IMG/VR virus record: IMGVR_UViG_3300034110_001257
Coordinates: 1-54,258 of that record
From: a virus
Length of the DNA: 54,258 nt
Direction: 5' to 3' (one strand)
Program-made: the position numbers and the translations under genes
In this document: positions 1,568 to 50,416 of the stretch, in pieces
Position numbering within the stretch: the first letter of the stretch is position 1
How the letters are laid out: each line of letters starts with the position of its first letter
The notes under the pieces: generated by a model
Database searches by the model: none
Told to the model about the DNA's origin: nothing
What the model saw: the letters and a program-made list of their open reading frames with translations, nothing else

Positions 1568-2623
1568 CTAGTGCTGAACTTCAATAGCTGGGCCGGCCTT
1601 GAGGGATGAGCGTGAAATCATTTTTGCTAGCTTCAGCAGATATTTCTCTACAAGAATGTAGCATATAATTCCGCCTAGCAGCCCAGCAGTCACAGCGCCT
1701 ACCGCGTACCAGACTGCCATCGCAAGGCTGGATATCTTCCCAAAAGTCGTTACAAATAGCACATACCAGATTCGTTGAGAAATTGGATGCGACAAATACA
1801 GTGAATATGATGCCTCCCCAAACAACAAAGCGACCCTATTAATATTTGACCGAATGTACTTCTCAATCGAAATGAATCCTGCGACTAAGAAAAATGCCGG
1901 GACGCCGTATACTAAAGACCGAGTGAATATGGTGAAATCAGCTAATACTAACGCCACACTACTAGTGCCAACCAATAGGATTGTCGGCAACAACCCGATA
2001 CTTACCCAGCGCTGTCTGGTGACCCCTAGCAAGACGCCAAGCAGAAATTCAATGATGATCGGGCTTGTGTAGGTTTTGCCCAATGGACCTTCTGGAGCCA
2101 AAGCAGAGCCAACGATAGCAAGCGTAACTATAACTGCAGCTATGAACAAAAGCCTCATTCTTAGGTTTTGCAGTGCTAAGGAGAGACCGAATATCGCGTA
2201 AAAGAACATCTCATATGTGAGGGTCCACCCAATGGTGTATACAGGTGTGATATCACCAACATCGGGGTTTTGGGCGGGAATGAAAAACAGTGACTTAAGC
2301 AGGAATACTGGATCGACTCCCCGAGAGTTGAAAAACAAGCTTGGCATTAATAGCGCAGCAGCGACAAGTACAAAGGTGAACAACCAGTATAAAGGCGCCA
2401 CTCTCAATATCCGCGAAACCCAAAACTCTCTTATACCTTTACTCTTACCTTCTGTGGTTACCCACATTACGAAACCGGATATGACAAAGAATATATCTAC
2501 GCCAAAATCACCCACCGGGTTATCGAAGTATGGTGCTACAGCAATCATCACCATGGAATGGTAGATGATAACTAGCCCAGCTGCGATGCCTCTCAAGTAT
2601 TGTATTCCGTAGAATTTTTCCAC
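1568..2623 (-). CDS. Acyltransferase family 3 membrane protein, probable O-antigen/LPS acetylase
   Basis: This is an integral membrane O-acyltransferase of the OafA/NodX family (Acyltransferase 3), which acetylates surface sugars from the periplasmic side. The N-terminal signature YLRGIAAGLVIIYHS carries the family's Arg and catalytic His, followed by FGVDIFFVISGFVM and about ten hydrophobic segments. The C-terminal SGNH domain of OafA is absent; at about 351 residues it is the short, membrane-only form. I chose GTG (MEKFYGIQYLRG), but a TTG at 2641 is possible. It is visibly AT-richer than its neighbours, a sign of recent acquisition. Such enzymes are classic lysogenic-conversion genes that change the O-antigen receptor. 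Confidence 0.85.
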   Translation of the reverse strand: MEKFYGIQYLRGIAAGLVIIYHSMVMIAVAPYFDNPVGDFGVDIFFVISGFVMWVTTEGKSKGIREFWVSRILRVAPLYWLFTFVLVAAALLMPSLFFNSRGVDPVFLLKSLFFIPAQNPDVGDITPVYTIGWTLTYEMFFYAIFGLSLALQNLRMRLLFIAAVIVTLAIVGSALAPEGPLGKTYTSPIIIEFLLGVLLGVTRQRWVSIGLLPTILLVGTSSVALVLADFTIFTRSLVYGVPAFFLVAGFISIEKYIRSNINRVALLFGEASYSLYLSHPISQRIWYVLFVTTFGKISSLAMAVWYAVGAVTAGLLGGIICYILVEKYLLKLAKMISRSSLKAGPAIEVQH

Positions 2624-2718
2624 GCGTACAGTCCATTGCAAATTTGTGAGATTAATTTGCCATTATCGCTGGGTACGTGGCATTTCTCAATATCTTGAGA
2701 GGCTGAAGTCTGAGATGA

Positions 2719-40664: not shown

Positions 40665-40937
40665 CTAGCGATTGGCCACCCGATGCACAATTTGGTTCGC
40701 TCTAAGGCCTATCGTTGACAGCTCTGGCCAAATGGCCTGCCAGTCATCTGGCCGAAGCGATTGGCGGGTAATCAGCCCCTGGGTTTCCCGCTCAAGATTT
40801 GCCGCGACCATCGCCGAGGCCTGCTTGTTGCCGTAAGCAATCTGCTTCAGGTAGCCACGAGTGGTGCCGGTCCGCGCAATGGCTTCATCCGAAGCGGACC
40901 TGACCCAATCCAGCATTTGGGTGTTCTTGATTCGCAT
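40665..40937 (-). CDS. Cro-like YdaS-type repressor
   Basis: The 90-residue product starts MRIKNTQMLDWVRSAS and contains the HTH-like DEAIARTGTTRGYLKQIAYGNKQASAMVAANLER in outline, then GLITRQSLRPDDW. That last block is typical of YdaS/Cro-type regulators (recognition helix, then 'xxLRPDxW'). AGGAG lies seven bases before the ATG. It is divergent from the CI-like gene with operators between, the classic immunity switch. Confidence 0.85.
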   Translation of the reverse strand: MRIKNTQMLDWVRSASDEAIARTGTTRGYLKQIAYGNKQASAMVAANLERETQGLITRQSLRPDDWQAIWPELSTIGLRANQIVHRVANR

Positions 40938-40962
40938 CACGAATCTCCTATGTGACGAACCA

Positions 40963-40991
40963 ATTCTTACCCACGGGTAAGCATTAAGCAA
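40963..40991 (-). promoter_or_regulatory. Leftward early promoter (pR-like)
   Basis: Read leftward, TTGCTT (-35) is followed after 17 bases by AAGAAT (-10, extended TAAGAAT). The palindrome TTACCCGTGGGTAA lies between the boxes and partly over the -10, so a bound repressor would block it. It would drive the cro-like gene and the replication operon. Confidence 0.6.
40967..40980. promoter_or_regulatory. Repressor operator O1
   Basis: TTACCC-AC-GGGTAA is a perfect dyad with 6-base arms in the cI-cro interval. It overlaps the leftward promoter. Confidence 0.75.
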
Positions 40992-41040: not shown

Positions 41041-41781
41041 ATGGATATGAACTTGATCAGAAAAGCGAACCTTCACCTGCTAATCGACCGCGAATACGGG
41101 ATTGGAAAGCATGGAGCGAAGGCTGAGTTCGCGCGCCGCCTAGAAAAGCAGCCCGATTACATTTCGCGCTGCCTTTATCCGCCAGGGAAGAAGGGCGGCA
41201 AGAATATTGGCGAAGATTTCGCGCGTGAGATCGAGCGAGAGTACCGGCTCCCTATCTACGCTATGGATCGCCCGCGCTTGGGGGCAGACAGTTCTGAGAC
41301 GATCAACGTTGATGGGCTCCCTGAGCCCTTGGCTCAGAAAATCAGGAGCTATAGGCCGCTCGTAGAGGTCCCACGCTACGAAATTGAGGGCTCCATGGGT
41401 CCGGGCACGGAGCCACCCGAAATGAACATGGTCATTGAGCATATGAGCCTGGATGCGAACTGGGTGCGCCAGAACCTGACCTACACCAAGCCGGAGAACC
41501 TGAAACTGATTTCGGGCCGTGGCGACAGCATGGCGCCGACGATCCGCAGCGGGGACGCAGTGCTGGTGGACGCCGGAGTCACCTCGGTCGAGGACGACGC
41601 GATCTACTTCTTCCTCATGCGCGGGAAGCTCCAGATCAAGCGAATTCAGCGCGACCTAGATGGCCTGAGGATCATCTCGGACAACACGCAGTATCCAGCG
41701 ATTGAGGTGCCGGGCGAGCGCGAGGATGACATCAAGATCCTGGCCCAGATCATCTACTGGTGGACCGGTCGGAGCTTCTAG
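41041..41781 (+). CDS. CI-like repressor with S24 self-cleavage domain
   Basis: The 246-residue protein has an N-terminal DNA-binding part (HGAKAEFARRLEKQPDYISRCL in outline) and a C-terminal LexA/CI peptidase domain with Ser163 (GRGDSMAPTIRSGD) and Lys200 (LQIKRIQ). The cleavage position is probably Met119-Gly120 in EGSMGPG rather than the usual Ala-Gly. There is no good ribosome binding site before the ATG (an alternative ATG lies two codons later), recalling the weakly translated cI of lambda. It should keep both early promoters off and be inactivated by RecA after DNA damage. Confidence 0.9.
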   Translation: MDMNLIRKANLHLLIDREYGIGKHGAKAEFARRLEKQPDYISRCLYPPGKKGGKNIGEDFAREIEREYRLPIYAMDRPRLGADSSETINVDGLPEPLAQKIRSYRPLVEVPRYEIEGSMGPGTEPPEMNMVIEHMSLDANWVRQNLTYTKPENLKLISGRGDSMAPTIRSGDAVLVDAGVTSVEDDAIYFFLMRGKLQIKRIQRDLDGLRIISDNTQYPAIEVPGEREDDIKILAQIIYWWTGRSF

Positions 41782-41783
41782 TC

Positions 41784-42035
41784 ATGCCACTAACCAAGCC
41801 CAACCAAGAGCTCCGCCGCGACCTCCAGGGCCTGGCCAGCGATCTCAAATGGTCGGCGGTCGAGCTGTTGCGGATTGCCGAGCGACTGAGCCAGGCCGGA
41901 AACGAGCATGACGCCCAGGCGGTGATCAGGATCTGCCAGGTAATGCAGGCTGGGGAGGATCGGTTGGCTGGGTATGGGGATGAGGTGAAGGCGGGGACGA
42001 TTGTGCGGATGAAGCCTCATAACGAGGATCAATGA
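41784..42035 (+). CDS. Small helical protein after cI
   Basis: The 83-residue product (MPLTKPNQELRRDLQGLASD..., AQAVIRICQVMQAGEDRLAGYG) is probably all helical. It starts two bases after the cI stop and would be expressed in the lysogen. No family recognised. Confidence 0.6.
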   Translation: MPLTKPNQELRRDLQGLASDLKWSAVELLRIAERLSQAGNEHDAQAVIRICQVMQAGEDRLAGYGDEVKAGTIVRMKPHNEDQ

Positions 42036-42050
42036 ACTAACGATCCTCGT
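42022..42050. terminator. Hairpin between cI operon and Rex-like pair
   Basis: ACGAGGATC and GATCCTCGT form a perfect 9-bp stem around an 11-nt loop. No T-tract follows, so it may attenuate rather than end transcription from cI into the next genes. Confidence 0.4.
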
Positions 42051-42128
42051 AATTAGATACGAGCTTGATGTTAAAAATTACAAAGTAGGCGATGACCTGG
42101 CCAACACCATCGATTTAGGATTTACAAA

Positions 42129-43121
42129 ATGCACCGGAATGCAACCTTTTACGACCTAAAAATTAGCGCGTACGGAGTATCTCGAGCAGAAGGGAACTTA
42201 GCTCATTTTGCTACCACTCCAAAAACAATGCTAGCTATAGCACTACAAATAAAACAATTGTTCGATACGGGAGATCGCCTACTTCAAAAGGGACGCGTCT
42301 CCACCTCTCCCAAATATTTCCTCTCGGACATCAACATTACAGAGGAGCGATTGATATTACTAGTTAATATCAGCGACCCCTCTGCTCCAGATGCAGTGTC
42401 ATCCGACCCAGAAAGCAAAAGCCGCGTAGTACATGCCAAGCCGCCCGGCCATGGCGGGGAACATTCGGCGCACGTTGTTATCAATCTTAACCCAGAGAAG
42501 GGTGACAACTATTACCTTTGTGTAGTAGAGGCAGTTTACGGATCAGGATTACATTTAACTAGCATTATAAAATTCTTAAAGCACGTCATACGGAAGTGCA
42601 AAAGTGAGTTCCCGAAGGAATATCTAATCCCTAACAACAATGGCGCCAGAGACTCCAAAGGGAGACCTCTCATGGTTCATTTACTGCATGAACTAGAGCT
42701 ACAGGGCCATCCATCTGACGACTTCCAAAAAGACTTAGAGGGCGGCACCCTTGCTGCCATCCAATTGTTGAATTTCTCAAAAGAAGGCGCTATTTGGGAC
42801 GAGCAAGGAGGTATAATCGAGAGACAGCGCACTGTCGACTTAAGGCCGAAGTCCGAGATGATAGGATCGTTAGGCTCTGCAATCCGAAAGTTACGGGCTA
42901 ATGTTACCCGAGCCGATGAAGAGTACAAGCACATCAGAATAAGATTTAAAACAGAGGCCGGCGTTGACAAAGATGCCACGATATCAACAACCACCGGAAA
43001 CTTGGTGGCGAGCGAGAAATATGTGAAGCGACACCCGATCGAAGCACCGTTGGTCAACACTAGTAGCTTTGAAAGCATCAACTCGCTTATAATCAGGGAA
43101 GTTATCACGCTTATGGAGTAA
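42129..43121 (+). CDS. Soluble protein of a two-gene module next to cI (RexA-like position)
   Basis: The 330-residue product (MHRNATFYDLKISAYGVSRA...) is predicted soluble, with alternating beta and helical segments (NITEERLILLVNISDPS, HVVINLNPEKGDNYYLCVVEAVYGSGLH in outline) and a C-terminal helix ending LIIREVITLME. I recognise no domain. AGGA precedes the ATG. It is followed after three bases by a multi-pass membrane protein, both AT-richer than the phage core and both expressed in the direction of cI. This copies lambda cI-rexA-rexB. An abortive-infection or exclusion sensor role is inference from this layout. Confidence 0.7.
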   Translation: MHRNATFYDLKISAYGVSRAEGNLAHFATTPKTMLAIALQIKQLFDTGDRLLQKGRVSTSPKYFLSDINITEERLILLVNISDPSAPDAVSSDPESKSRVVHAKPPGHGGEHSAHVVINLNPEKGDNYYLCVVEAVYGSGLHLTSIIKFLKHVIRKCKSEFPKEYLIPNNNGARDSKGRPLMVHLLHELELQGHPSDDFQKDLEGGTLAAIQLLNFSKEGAIWDEQGGIIERQRTVDLRPKSEMIGSLGSAIRKLRANVTRADEEYKHIRIRFKTEAGVDKDATISTTTGNLVASEKYVKRHPIEAPLVNTSSFESINSLIIREVITLME

Positions 43122-43124
43122 GCG

Positions 43125-43691
43125 ATGTTACTAGGACAATTGCTAAGACCATTTGGCTACCTTTCCATACAGCATCCTTACAAGTGGGTGGTGGACTGGT
43201 TATACCCGTCAACTTTGGCAATGGCACTTACGATCACCCTATTCCTATTAGACAGTGAAGCAAGCTACTATGCACCTGGAAACCTAATTTCCCTGATATT
43301 ATCATTTGTTCAGTCTCTCCCGGGATTCTACATTGCTGCATTAGCGGCTATTGCCACATTCGGCCGCTCTGACATCGACAATATAATCCCCGAGCCAACT
43401 CCAAAGGTGATTATAAGATTTAGAGGTTCCACGAACATTGTCGACCTCACTCGCCGAAAGTTTCTGGCTATGCTTTTTGCATTTTTGACTGCGCAGAGCA
43501 TCTTGGTGGTAATATTTTCAATTGCCATGATGACTTTCGGAAAGTCGATTTTCGACTCAACAATTGCAGGTCTCGCTTCTGGTGTTGTCTTCAGTTTCGT
43601 CATCTTGCTTTCATACTTTATCGCCTTCTTTCAGATGATAATAGCCACTTTTTGGGGCCTTTATTATTTAGGATACAAACTGATGGAATAA
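43125..43691 (+). CDS. Multi-pass membrane protein of the same module (RexB-like position)
   Basis: The 188-residue product has about four membrane segments: WLYPSTLAMALTITLFLL, LISLILSFVQSLPGFYIAAL, FLAMLFAFLTAQSILVVIFSI and a long FSFVILLSYFIAFFQMIIATF-like C-terminal one. Between the second and third is a soluble loop (FGRSDIDNIIPEPTPKVIIRF) that may face the cytoplasm and contact the partner. RexB of lambda (144 residues) also has four segments, but no sequence identity is evident to me. Terminators follow at 43776 and 43863. Confidence 0.7.
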   Translation: MLLGQLLRPFGYLSIQHPYKWVVDWLYPSTLAMALTITLFLLDSEASYYAPGNLISLILSFVQSLPGFYIAALAAIATFGRSDIDNIIPEPTPKVIIRFRGSTNIVDLTRRKFLAMLFAFLTAQSILVVIFSIAMMTFGKSIFDSTIAGLASGVVFSFVILLSYFIAFFQMIIATFWGLYYLGYKLME

Positions 43692-43775
43692 TGATGCAGA
43701 GTCTTGCCCACATGATCGCCACTCGACAGTCCACACCATTTTATGATTGCTGGAGGGGCGGCGCAGGTCGCATAG

Positions 43776-43797
43776 AGCCCGCTTCGGCGGGCTTTTT
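43776..43797 (+). terminator. Intrinsic terminator of the cI-rex-like operon
   Basis: AGCCCGC-TTCG-GCGGGCT followed by TTTT closes the rightward immunity operon. Confidence 0.85.
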
Positions 43798-43862
43798 CAT
43801 GTCTTCACGCTATTTTCACGCCCTACCCTGCACAGTAAAGGCTCATCCGATTTCCCTACGTT

Positions 43863-43891
43863 AGCCCGCCCTCCCCGGCGGGCTTTTCTTT
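43863..43891 (+). terminator. Second intrinsic terminator
   Basis: AGCCCGCC-CTCCCC-GGCGGGCT followed by TTTCTTT. With the previous one it forms a double terminator that isolates the DUF1654 gene from the immunity operon. Confidence 0.85.
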
Positions 43892-45218: not shown

Positions 45219-46055
45219 TTAGGCGATCCCGCGTTTATAGAAAGTCTCGAAACAGAAGTTAGTCGCATCGATGTAGCCTTCGGCACCACCGCAGTCGAAA
45301 CGCTTGCCTTTAAACTTATAGGCAATCACGCAGCCATCTTTGGCCTGCTGCAGCAGGGCATCGGTGATCTGGATTTCACCGCCTTTGCCTGGTTTGGTAT
45401 TGGCGATGATGTCGAAGATATCCGGGGTCAGGATGTAACGGCCAATGATCGCCAGGTTCGAAGGCGCGTCTTCCGGGGCCGGTTTTTCGATCATGTTGGT
45501 CACACGGAAGATGTCGTCGCGGATCATCTCACCGGCGATCACACCATACTTGTTGGTTTCCTGCGGGTCGACTTCCTGGATGGCGACGATCGAGCAGCGG
45601 TACTGTTTGTACAGCTTGACCATCTGCGTCAGCACGCCGTCTCCTTCAGGGTTGACACACAGGTCGTCCGCCAGCACCACCGCGAACGGCTCGTCGCCGA
45701 TCAGTGGGCGGCCAGTGAGGATGGCGTGGCCGAGGCCTTTCATTTCTGTCTGGCGCGTATACGAGAACGAGCACTCGTCGAGCAGACGACGAATACCGAC
45801 CAGGTATTTTTCCTTGTCGGTACCCTTGATCTGGTTTTCCAGCTCGTAGCTGATGTCGAAGTGGTCTTCCAGGGCGCGCTTGCCGCGCCCAGTCACGATG
45901 GATATCTCGTTCAGACCGGCATCCAGCGCCTCTTCAACGCCATATTGGATCAACGGTTTGTTGACCACCGGCAGCATTTCCTTGGGCATGGCTTTGGTAG
46001 CAGGCAGGAAGCGGGTGCCGTAACCAGCTGCCGGGAACAAGCATTTCTTAATCAT
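45219..46055 (-). CDS. galU: UTP-glucose-1-phosphate uridylyltransferase
   Basis: The enzyme makes UDP-glucose from UTP and glucose-1-phosphate, the precursor for LPS core, exopolysaccharides and trehalose. The 278-residue frame is intact and full length for the bacterial family: FPAAGYGTRFLPATKAMPKE (nucleotide-binding loop), VVNKPLIQYGVEEA, VLADDL (metal Asp), GEIQITDAL and RFDCGGAEGY. AAGGA lies six bases before MIKKCLFP. It runs against flanking phage genes and is bracketed by hairpins, so it appears to be a captured host gene. Normal chromosomal galU neighbours are not seen. Confidence 0.93.
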   Translation of the reverse strand: MIKKCLFPAAGYGTRFLPATKAMPKEMLPVVNKPLIQYGVEEALDAGLNEISIVTGRGKRALEDHFDISYELENQIKGTDKEKYLVGIRRLLDECSFSYTRQTEMKGLGHAILTGRPLIGDEPFAVVLADDLCVNPEGDGVLTQMVKLYKQYRCSIVAIQEVDPQETNKYGVIAGEMIRDDIFRVTNMIEKPAPEDAPSNLAIIGRYILTPDIFDIIANTKPGKGGEIQITDALLQQAKDGCVIAYKFKGKRFDCGGAEGYIDATNFCFETFYKRGIA

Positions 46056-46172
46056 CGGTAGTCCTTGAGATAAAAATTCCGTAGCCCGACAGTTTAAACA
46101 ATCGAGCGTGGACCAACAATTCAGCTCATTCCTAACACCTTGAAATATCCCCACTTCTTTACCCCTTAAATA

Positions 46173-46248
46173 GACTGCATCGGTCGTGACGTTCGCCCTT
46201 CCCTGGTCCGGAAGGTATGCGGCAGCGAGCGTCACGACCAATGCAGTC
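46173..46248. repeat. Long inverted repeat upstream of LuxR-type gene and galU
   Basis: Arms 46173-46196 and 46225-46248 are 24 bases each and match at 22 positions. The 28-base centre holds a further small dyad (CCTTCC / GGAAGG). It lies between the divergent galU and HTH genes. It could be a strong hairpin in RNA or a dyad bound by the neighbouring regulator. No T-tract follows. Confidence 0.8.
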
Positions 46249-46263
46249 CGCCGAGGACACTTC

Positions 46264-46647
46264 ATGGAAACGATCACTCGCGGCTCATGGATTGGCCAGC
46301 TCGGAAAGGCGCTGGCTCCCCGTGAACTCGAAGCACTGCTGTGGGTGGCTCAAGGCCTCACTACCAAAGAAATCGCCCGCCAGATGGCGGTCAGTCCGGG
46401 CACCGTGGCCAACCGCATAGAAGCCGTGCTGTTCAAACTGGAAGCCGGCCGCCGCATCGAAGCGGTCACCAAGGCCATGCGCCAACAGATCATCAGCCCG
46501 CTCTGCATGATGCTCGCCAGCCTCATCGCCATACACGCAGTGATAGACGACAGCGACCCGATGCGCCGCGACCGCCGCGCTCCGGAGCGCCGCACCGCCC
46601 AAGTTCGAATCGTTCGCAAGGCCGAGGCCTTCGAGCTCCACGCCTAA
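46264..46647 (+). CDS. LuxR-type HTH protein
   Basis: The 127-residue product has a GerE/LuxR HTH at residues about 17-75 (LAPRELEALLWVAQGLTTKEIARQ in outline, VSPGTVANRIEAVLFKL). A hydrophobic segment (IISPLCMMLASLIAIHAVI) and a basic tail follow. No receiver or ligand domain is present, so the HTH is at the N-terminus, the reverse of usual LuxR proteins. GAGG lies upstream of the ATG. It is the first gene rightward of galU and may bind the adjacent inverted repeat (inference). Confidence 0.75.
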   Translation: METITRGSWIGQLGKALAPRELEALLWVAQGLTTKEIARQMAVSPGTVANRIEAVLFKLEAGRRIEAVTKAMRQQIISPLCMMLASLIAIHAVIDDSDPMRRDRRAPERRTAQVRIVRKAEAFELHA

Positions 46648-49344: not shown

Positions 49345-49497
49345 GACCTGCGGGCCACGGCCCACTCCAATCACCTGGTTGCGGCCGGCTGGATCGCCAT
49401 CCCCGCTGATACAACGCTGGTCGAAGCAAGGGCCGCCGAGATTTACCTGCTGTCGGCGCATGGTTCCATTGACGTCAGCTCGATTTATCGTCCTTAG
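49345..49497 (+). pseudogene. Truncated duplicate of the 46932 gene 3' end
   Basis: In frame from 49345 one reads DLRATAHSNHLVAAGWIAIP, then ADTTLVEARAAEIYLLSAHG and a stop. This repeats the C-terminal part of the 46932-47390 protein. The rest of the gene is missing. The fragment lies at the junction of inserted genes and overlaps the end of the TIR gene on the other strand. Confidence 0.75.
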
Positions 49498-50302
49498 CTG
49501 AAGCTTTACGAGGCTTAACGACCGGAGTAAACGTGACCTTTCGATGCCTACTTAAGACATCTTGAACAAATTGCTGATCGACACCTAGATCATGTGATCT
49601 TTTCAATATTTCTTGAATGGTAACTTCATCATTAATCGCCATGTCAAAGATTATCTCTTCGGGAGACTTGTGAAACCGAGAGAATCCGGCGTGCGATTCC
49701 ATGGAAACCACTTGACGCTGCTCAAGGTCCCTCACTCGACTTGAGAGGGACCGGGTATTGGACAATATTTCCGCAAGAATGCTCTGCTCTGACCTAGGCT
49801 CCACATTTTCAGTTTGAGGGGTGCTTTTGATAGCTTCTTTAAACCGTTGATCAAACTGTGGCCAGTAAGTATCAAAAACTTGACGAAGAATTCTTTCATC
49901 AAGGCGACTCTGATCCAAGCAAGAGTTCAGAGAACAAATCAGCCCCCACATGGAGGTTCGCTCTGGAAAGGTGTGATTGAATTGTGCGAGGGGATCTTCA
50001 ATTTCGCTACTTTGCAAGTCAATCAAGAACGTGCAGACACGATTTGTGCTGAGACCTTTAGCTAATGCCCCAGTTTCAAACAAGATCCAAGGCTTATTTT
50101 TGTTTTCCTGTGTCAGACAAACAATTCCGGCGGCAGTATCTTTCAGCTGATCCGATATTTCAGAAAACCAAATAGCGCCTTTATCAATGTCACGCGTGGA
50201 TATCCATGGCTGCGAAGCCTGCAATACGCACTTAATCCAATCGCTAATCAATTCAGCAACAGCCTTGCTACGCTGGCCCGACCAACTAACAAATACCTTC
50301 AT
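49475..50302 (-). CDS. TIR-domain protein, candidate NADase defence effector
   Basis: The 275-residue product begins MKVFVSWSGQRSKAVAELISDW, a TIR-type first strand and helix. DIDKGAIWFSEISDQLKDTAAGIVCLTQEN and PWILFETGAL follow in outline; Glu76 is in the place of the NADase catalytic Glu. The C-terminal 130 residues are helical with a coiled-coil part (ILSNTRSLSSRVRDLEQRQV). Bacterial TIR proteins commonly act as NAD-degrading effectors of anti-phage systems. Here it stands alone, AT-rich, inside the accessory arm. The start could also be MRFRMKVF four codons earlier. Confidence 0.8.
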   Translation of the reverse strand: MKVFVSWSGQRSKAVAELISDWIKCVLQASQPWISTRDIDKGAIWFSEISDQLKDTAAGIVCLTQENKNKPWILFETGALAKGLSTNRVCTFLIDLQSSEIEDPLAQFNHTFPERTSMWGLICSLNSCLDQSRLDERILRQVFDTYWPQFDQRFKEAIKSTPQTENVEPRSEQSILAEILSNTRSLSSRVRDLEQRQVVSMESHAGFSRFHKSPEEIIFDMAINDEVTIQEILKRSHDLGVDQQFVQDVLSRHRKVTFTPVVKPRKASAKDDKSS

Positions 50303-50416
50303 ACGAAATCTCATCCAGTGGCTACCTAGCGAGTAATGTCGCACGGCCACCACTAAAAAATCTAGCACCGCTGCCCGCCAGCGCCTTCCCCTATTCAACG
50401 ATAACGCGTCCCAGCG

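Follow-up and report, generated by a model that had tools for sequence, protein, structure and literature searches.

The window, by which we mean the whole stretch of DNA that was analysed, is a 54,258-bp virus record. A CI-like gene, which would be the first gene of a lysogeny operon, is followed in the same direction by a small ORF and then by two genes, designated A and B here, that encode a soluble and a membrane protein (Table 1). The product of the divergent regulator gene also matched a PHROG transcriptional repressor (6e-09). The small ORF begins just past the CI stop codon, so that A does not directly follow CI; no strong terminator was found when the interval between CI and A was scanned. 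B lies 3 bp downstream of A on the same strand. In a Kyte-Doolittle scan, the hydrophobicity of A reached a maximum of 1.31, with no segment above 1.4, while B peaked at 2.43. The GC content of the pair is 45.0%, compared with 59.5% for the remaining window, and is below that of all 1054 scanned segments of 1563 bp, which makes the pair the most AT-rich 1.56-kb stretch. The first-pass annotation had described a 330-residue soluble protein and a 188-residue protein with about four membrane segments, encoded three bases apart in the same direction past a CI-like gene, followed by a double terminator and AT-richer than the phage core. All of this was confirmed, four long helices being present in the AF2 model of B.

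Table 1. Coordinates of the repressor genes, the A-B pair and adjoining features in the window
Feature	Position	Strand	Basis
Cro/YdaS-type regulator, divergent from repressor	40665..40991	-	Pfam YdaS_toxin 7.1e-07, just under cut-off
CI-like S24 repressor	41041..41781	+	Peptidase_S24 1.6e-19; PHROG CI-like repressor 2.4e-26
Small ORF, 83 aa, in the CI-A interval	41784..42035	+	PHROG 6388, function unassigned
A, RexA-like (PDC-M53A), soluble, 330 aa	42129..43121	+	PADLOC; identity to L022 A; AF2 model
B, RexB-like (PDC-M53B), membrane, 188 aa	43125..43691	+	PADLOC; identity to L022 B; AF2 model
First intrinsic terminator after B	~43776..43797	+	Hairpin AGCCCGC-TTCG-GCGGGCT-TTTT, read directly
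Second intrinsic terminator	43863..43890	+	Stem of 8 pairs, T-rich tail

Elsewhere in the window, a gene on the minus strand (49475-50398) encodes a protein with a TIR domain (Pfam TIR_2 3.4e-06, exactly at the cut-off). GC is low here too (49.4% over 49-50 kb), making this a further AT-rich patch, and a part of the region matches DNA of phage mEp390; the gene may serve defence or exclusion as well. A gene close to the left end (1568-2641, minus strand) belongs to the Acyltransferase_3 family. Enzymes of this type alter sugars of the cell surface during lysogenic conversion, so that phage adsorption might also be blocked. A nucleotidyl transferase gene (45219-46277, minus strand), resembling a host-type UTP-glucose-1-phosphate uridylyltransferase (galU), is flanked by phage-like regions, and its neighbours are encoded on the other strand.

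Pfam and NCBIfam gave no domain above cut-off in A, B or their distant relatives, and PDB sequence searches with single sequences and with profiles gave chance matches only. In PHROG, A belongs to phrog_31143 and B to phrog_8257, neither of which has an assigned function. In PADLOC, A matched PDC-M53A over residues 1-330 of 330 (2.2e-153) and B matched PDC-M53B over residues 1-187 (1.1e-69), so that both proteins match the PDC-M53 models over their full length. PDC-M53 is a candidate two-gene defence system without a stated function, included in PADLOC version 2.0.0 of 2023, and a literature search on this label found no paper. The earlier statement that neither protein has a recognisable domain therefore holds for Pfam and NCBIfam, but PHROG and PADLOC assign each protein to a named family. 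Weak PADLOC matches of B to RTasSLATT and PDC-M18B, as well as Pfam matches to Fijivirus P9-2 and 7tm_7 in single relatives, were judged to be driven by composition and were set aside.

For A, AF2 gave a model (pLDDT 92.2) whose N-terminal domain contains multiple strands. Four long strands and two helices make up the middle domain, which is followed by a C-terminal helix. RexA has been described as a globular domain split around a dimerisation domain, and the predicted topology of A agrees with this layout. In the AF2 model of B (pLDDT 93.5) the four long helices span residues 20-42, 54-78 (with a break near residue 64), 110-144 and 152-185, with a hairpin at 94-107. Residues P28, G67, F68, A71, A72, L73 and R111 of B are invariant across relatives, and most of them fall in helix 2.

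Direct comparison with the lambda proteins was also performed. When profiles were compared with hhalign, A matched lambda RexA with P = 0.067 and collinear C-terminal ends, and B matched lambda RexB with P = 0.068; in both cases a nonsense cross-comparison was equally good. The PADLOC RexB model gave a weak match (0.0034) in one of 94 B relatives. Foldseek searches of the PDB with the models of A and B returned no match at E <= 0.001, and the RexA structure 8twq was absent from the best 50 matches of A. No sequence identity to RexA or RexB had been seen in the first-pass annotation, and neither of these profile tests was significant.

A related locus has been characterised in Pseudomonas putida. 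Genes PP_5643-PP_5644 of prophage P1 constitute RexABpp, a RexAB-type abortive-infection system, in which loss of either gene abolishes resistance to certain phages, so that both are needed (PMC12894663, January 2026). Deletion of PP_3897 or PP_3898, which lie between the repressor gene and rexAB, left the defence intact (PMC12894663). The soluble protein PP_5643 was matched to lambda RexA by HHpred (98.2%) and by Dali (Z 8.8 to 8TWQ), and its dimer is predicted to clamp DNA (PMC12894663). PP_5644 has four membrane helices, was modelled by AlphaFold as a pentamer, and had no RexB match in HHpred (PMC12894663).

Among the loci collected in this analysis, one record (L022) is a 52,459-bp prophage with the gene order described for P1, namely repressor, two small genes, A and B. 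Its A protein with six added histidines has a mass of 37.47 kDa, compared with the reported 37.5 kDa. Its B protein carries W25, F35, L55, S145, G153 and Y181, all of them residues of published rexB mutants, and T103, another of the seven published mutation sites, is displaced by one. Y181 is a loss-of-function site among these mutants (PMC12894663), and 93 of 94 B relatives have Y or F at this position. Based on the match in mutant residues, mass and gene order, i.e. on content, we identified L022 as the RexABpp locus of P1.

The proteins of the window are 54% (A) and 61% (B) identical to those of L022, and the two gene pairs are about 64% identical in nucleotides over the part that can be aligned. 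Given these identities and the syntenic position, the A-B pair of the window is orthologous to RexABpp. The relationship of A to lambda RexA rests on what HHpred and Dali showed for this ortholog (PMC12894663), not on the profile tests described above. The repressors of the two loci are only 24% identical, while the window and the L022 prophage have collinear blocks in common, with 79-88% nucleotide identity in the replication region. The two form a mosaic in which the repressor has been swapped around a retained exclusion pair. The 83-aa ORF of the window has the same MPLTKPNQELRRDL start and the same position before A as a 78-aa ORF of L022, and is its counterpart at the position of PP_3898; since deletion of PP_3897 or PP_3898 did not impair the defence, the ORF is probably dispensable for it.

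At the DNA level, only 10.7 kb, or roughly one fifth of the window, can be aligned with the P1-type prophage (L239-L241); the replication region is kept and the immunity region is exchanged.

Profile searches yielded 80 viral and 80 genome loci that carry B. Of 176 loci (some of which are repeats of one contig), 169 have A directly 5' of B in the same orientation. The seven exceptions comprise three contig ends (one of which keeps the tail of A), one masked locus, a locus in which A is interrupted by a transposase gene (L107), and two loci without A (L117 and L123). The pair is kept, with A directly before B, in 171 of the 173 testable loci, L117 and L123 being the only ones truly without A. 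The two genes are thus almost never split, and the separability in relatives that would have spoken against a functional pair was not found. In L107 (about 371-1363), from a Bathymodiolus gill symbiont, the transposase gene splits A while the B that follows is intact, which provides a natural B without a working A. In L123 (5288-5923), from Marinobacterium, B is preceded by a different, membrane-like protein of about 211 aa in place of A.

Of 299 Pseudomonas genomes, five contain A and the same five contain B, with one further, decayed B. Distances among A proteins correlate with those among B proteins (r = 0.70; 500 permutations gave values of at most 0.09), and the nearest neighbour is identical for A and B in only 45 of 109 pairs. 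The mean identity is 39% for B versus 26% for A, and of 400 random pairs, 398 show A to be the more divergent protein.

How the pair may act can be judged from the data on RexABpp. RexApp binds DNA non-specifically, and RexApp and RexBpp each self-associate, while contact between the two was not detected by two-hybrid (PMC12894663). Excess RexApp causes growth arrest only when rexB is present; under these conditions SYTOX and propidium enter the cells with no depolarisation, and suppressor mutations map to rexB (PMC12894663). The roles of sensor and effector are assigned to A and B from these data, and the window pair is expected to act in the same way. We consider it likely, with a probability of roughly 0.87, that A-B is a prophage RexAB-type superinfection-exclusion (abortive infection) module consisting of sensor A and membrane effector B. 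A and B would probably be co-transcribed with the repressor in the lysogen, presumably from the repressor promoter. A may be a dimeric, non-specific DNA-binding protein with the two-domain layout of RexA, serving as the infection sensor; the intermediate of the invader that it senses would probably be a DNA-protein complex of replication or recombination. A would then activate B, perhaps by direct contact. B, a putative oligomeric four-helix protein of the inner membrane, would in turn breach the membrane through a pore whose geometry we infer, and growth would stop before the invading phage multiplies. An exclusion module of a Rex-like sensor and a membrane effector had been proposed by the first-pass annotation, and the ortholog RexABpp, which blocks phages and requires both genes (PMC12894663), bears this out.

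The division of labour might also be the reverse. For gp30/gp31 of mycobacteriophage Butters, the discussion of PMC12894663 describes an arrangement in which, applied here, soluble A would be the effector and membrane B would restrain it until infection frees A. The greater divergence of A could then reflect the fact that A meets phage targets directly. However, RexApp overproduction is harmless without B and is suppressed by mutations in rexB, and RexABpp defence needs both genes (PMC12894663). It seems improbable, therefore, that B merely holds A in check.

The pair is not tied to one genomic position. The first-pass annotation had regarded it as locked to the CI repressor, a claim that was not upheld: of 109 distinct representative loci, only 15 have an S24 repressor gene in the same orientation in the 1 kb upstream, and those repressors are only about 22-32% identical to that of the window. 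In L008, identity to the window counterparts is 89% for A and 82% for B, while the adjoining CI is only 30% identical. The window pair is an ortholog of RexABpp with an exchanged repressor, an argument for a module that needs no one repressor in order to work. The nearest upstream genes also include DNA methylases, holins and antiterminator Q; among the downstream genes are antiterminator Q (9 of 102), DUF1654 and integrases. The pair was also found in other phage loci. In Shigella phage SfII it lies in the lysis region, with Q on one side and a holin on the other, and the SfII-type pair is present in 24 of 5,426 complete E. coli genomes; in the lysis region of Salmonella phage F1055 it adjoins the holin; and in two Vibrio Vinavirales (PM2-like) prophages it ends a long gene block that includes capsid genes. 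Judged by these varied settings, the pair is accessory cargo favouring lysogeny and lysis boundaries.

The settings also bear on the possibility that the pair mainly regulates its own lysis-lysogeny switch, with exclusion as a side effect. The pair does sit in the repressor operon, and lambda RexA needs no RexB for its effect on the switch (PMC11077077). However, activity of the P1 repressor promoter is the same without rexAB (PMC12894663), and relatives are located far from any repressor, in lysis regions or beside methylase genes, which makes a primary regulatory role quite improbable.

Kiwa consists of a membrane protein of about 190 aa with four helices (KwaA) and a soluble protein of about 320 aa (KwaB). 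Although Kiwa thus has the same two-part plan and similar protein sizes, kinship of A-B with KwaA-KwaB instead of Rex was rejected as highly improbable, because the PADLOC models of KwaA and KwaB had no match in 94 B or 97 A relatives, Pfam DUF4868 had none among A members, and HHpred and Dali of the ortholog point to RexA (PMC12894663).

Taken together, the pair is already known in two respects, as the ortholog of a published system and as a listed PADLOC family. The first-pass annotation had called it undescribed, which is not tenable, for PDC-M53 (PADLOC, 2023) and RexABpp (January 2026, PMC12894663) precede it. PADLOC is not mentioned in the RexABpp paper (PMC12894663), and the equation of PDC-M53 with RexABpp, drawn here, is new, as are the near-absolute linkage of A and B and the independence from the repressor. 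If PDC-M53 is the RexABpp family, more than 100 natural sensor-effector pairs from varied phages and hosts become available. With these, it can be examined which of the two proteins detects the invading phage and by what means its membrane partner stalls or kills the cell. A count made in 2026 gave five RexAB-like systems. We tentatively suggest, at slightly less than even odds, that PDC-M53/RexABpp is much commoner than these five and is one broadly mobile module, transferred as a unit between unrelated viruses and host chromosomes across Pseudomonadota, in which the more divergent A sets phage specificity and the conserved B is a distant relative of lambda RexB that causes leakage instead of depolarisation. 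Such a module would cover tailed prophages, at several sites, as well as PM2-like tailless prophages.

Lambda RexAB is among the first exclusion systems described, and to our knowledge its trigger is still not known. The window shares its cI-rexA-rexB layout, a soluble gene followed by a membrane partner, and the published fold match concerns the ortholog of A. In contrast, A has 330 aa versus 279 and B has 188 aa versus 144, and RexABpp causes leakage without depolarisation, so that a lambda-style ion-channel step would be speculative for the pair. That the pair works like Rex is well supported through its ortholog RexABpp. In the account of PMC12894663, gp44/43 of CarolAnn and gp30/31 of Sbash are described as RexAB-type systems in which both partners are needed; these belong to actinobacteriophages and are likened to the window pair by description. 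RexABpp itself differs from the window in having two genes, not one, in the CI-A interval, a repressor with the low identity given above (24%) and different phage structural genes, but the order and spacing of A and B, their place after a CI-like repressor, a GC content of about 45% and a related prophage backbone are the same.
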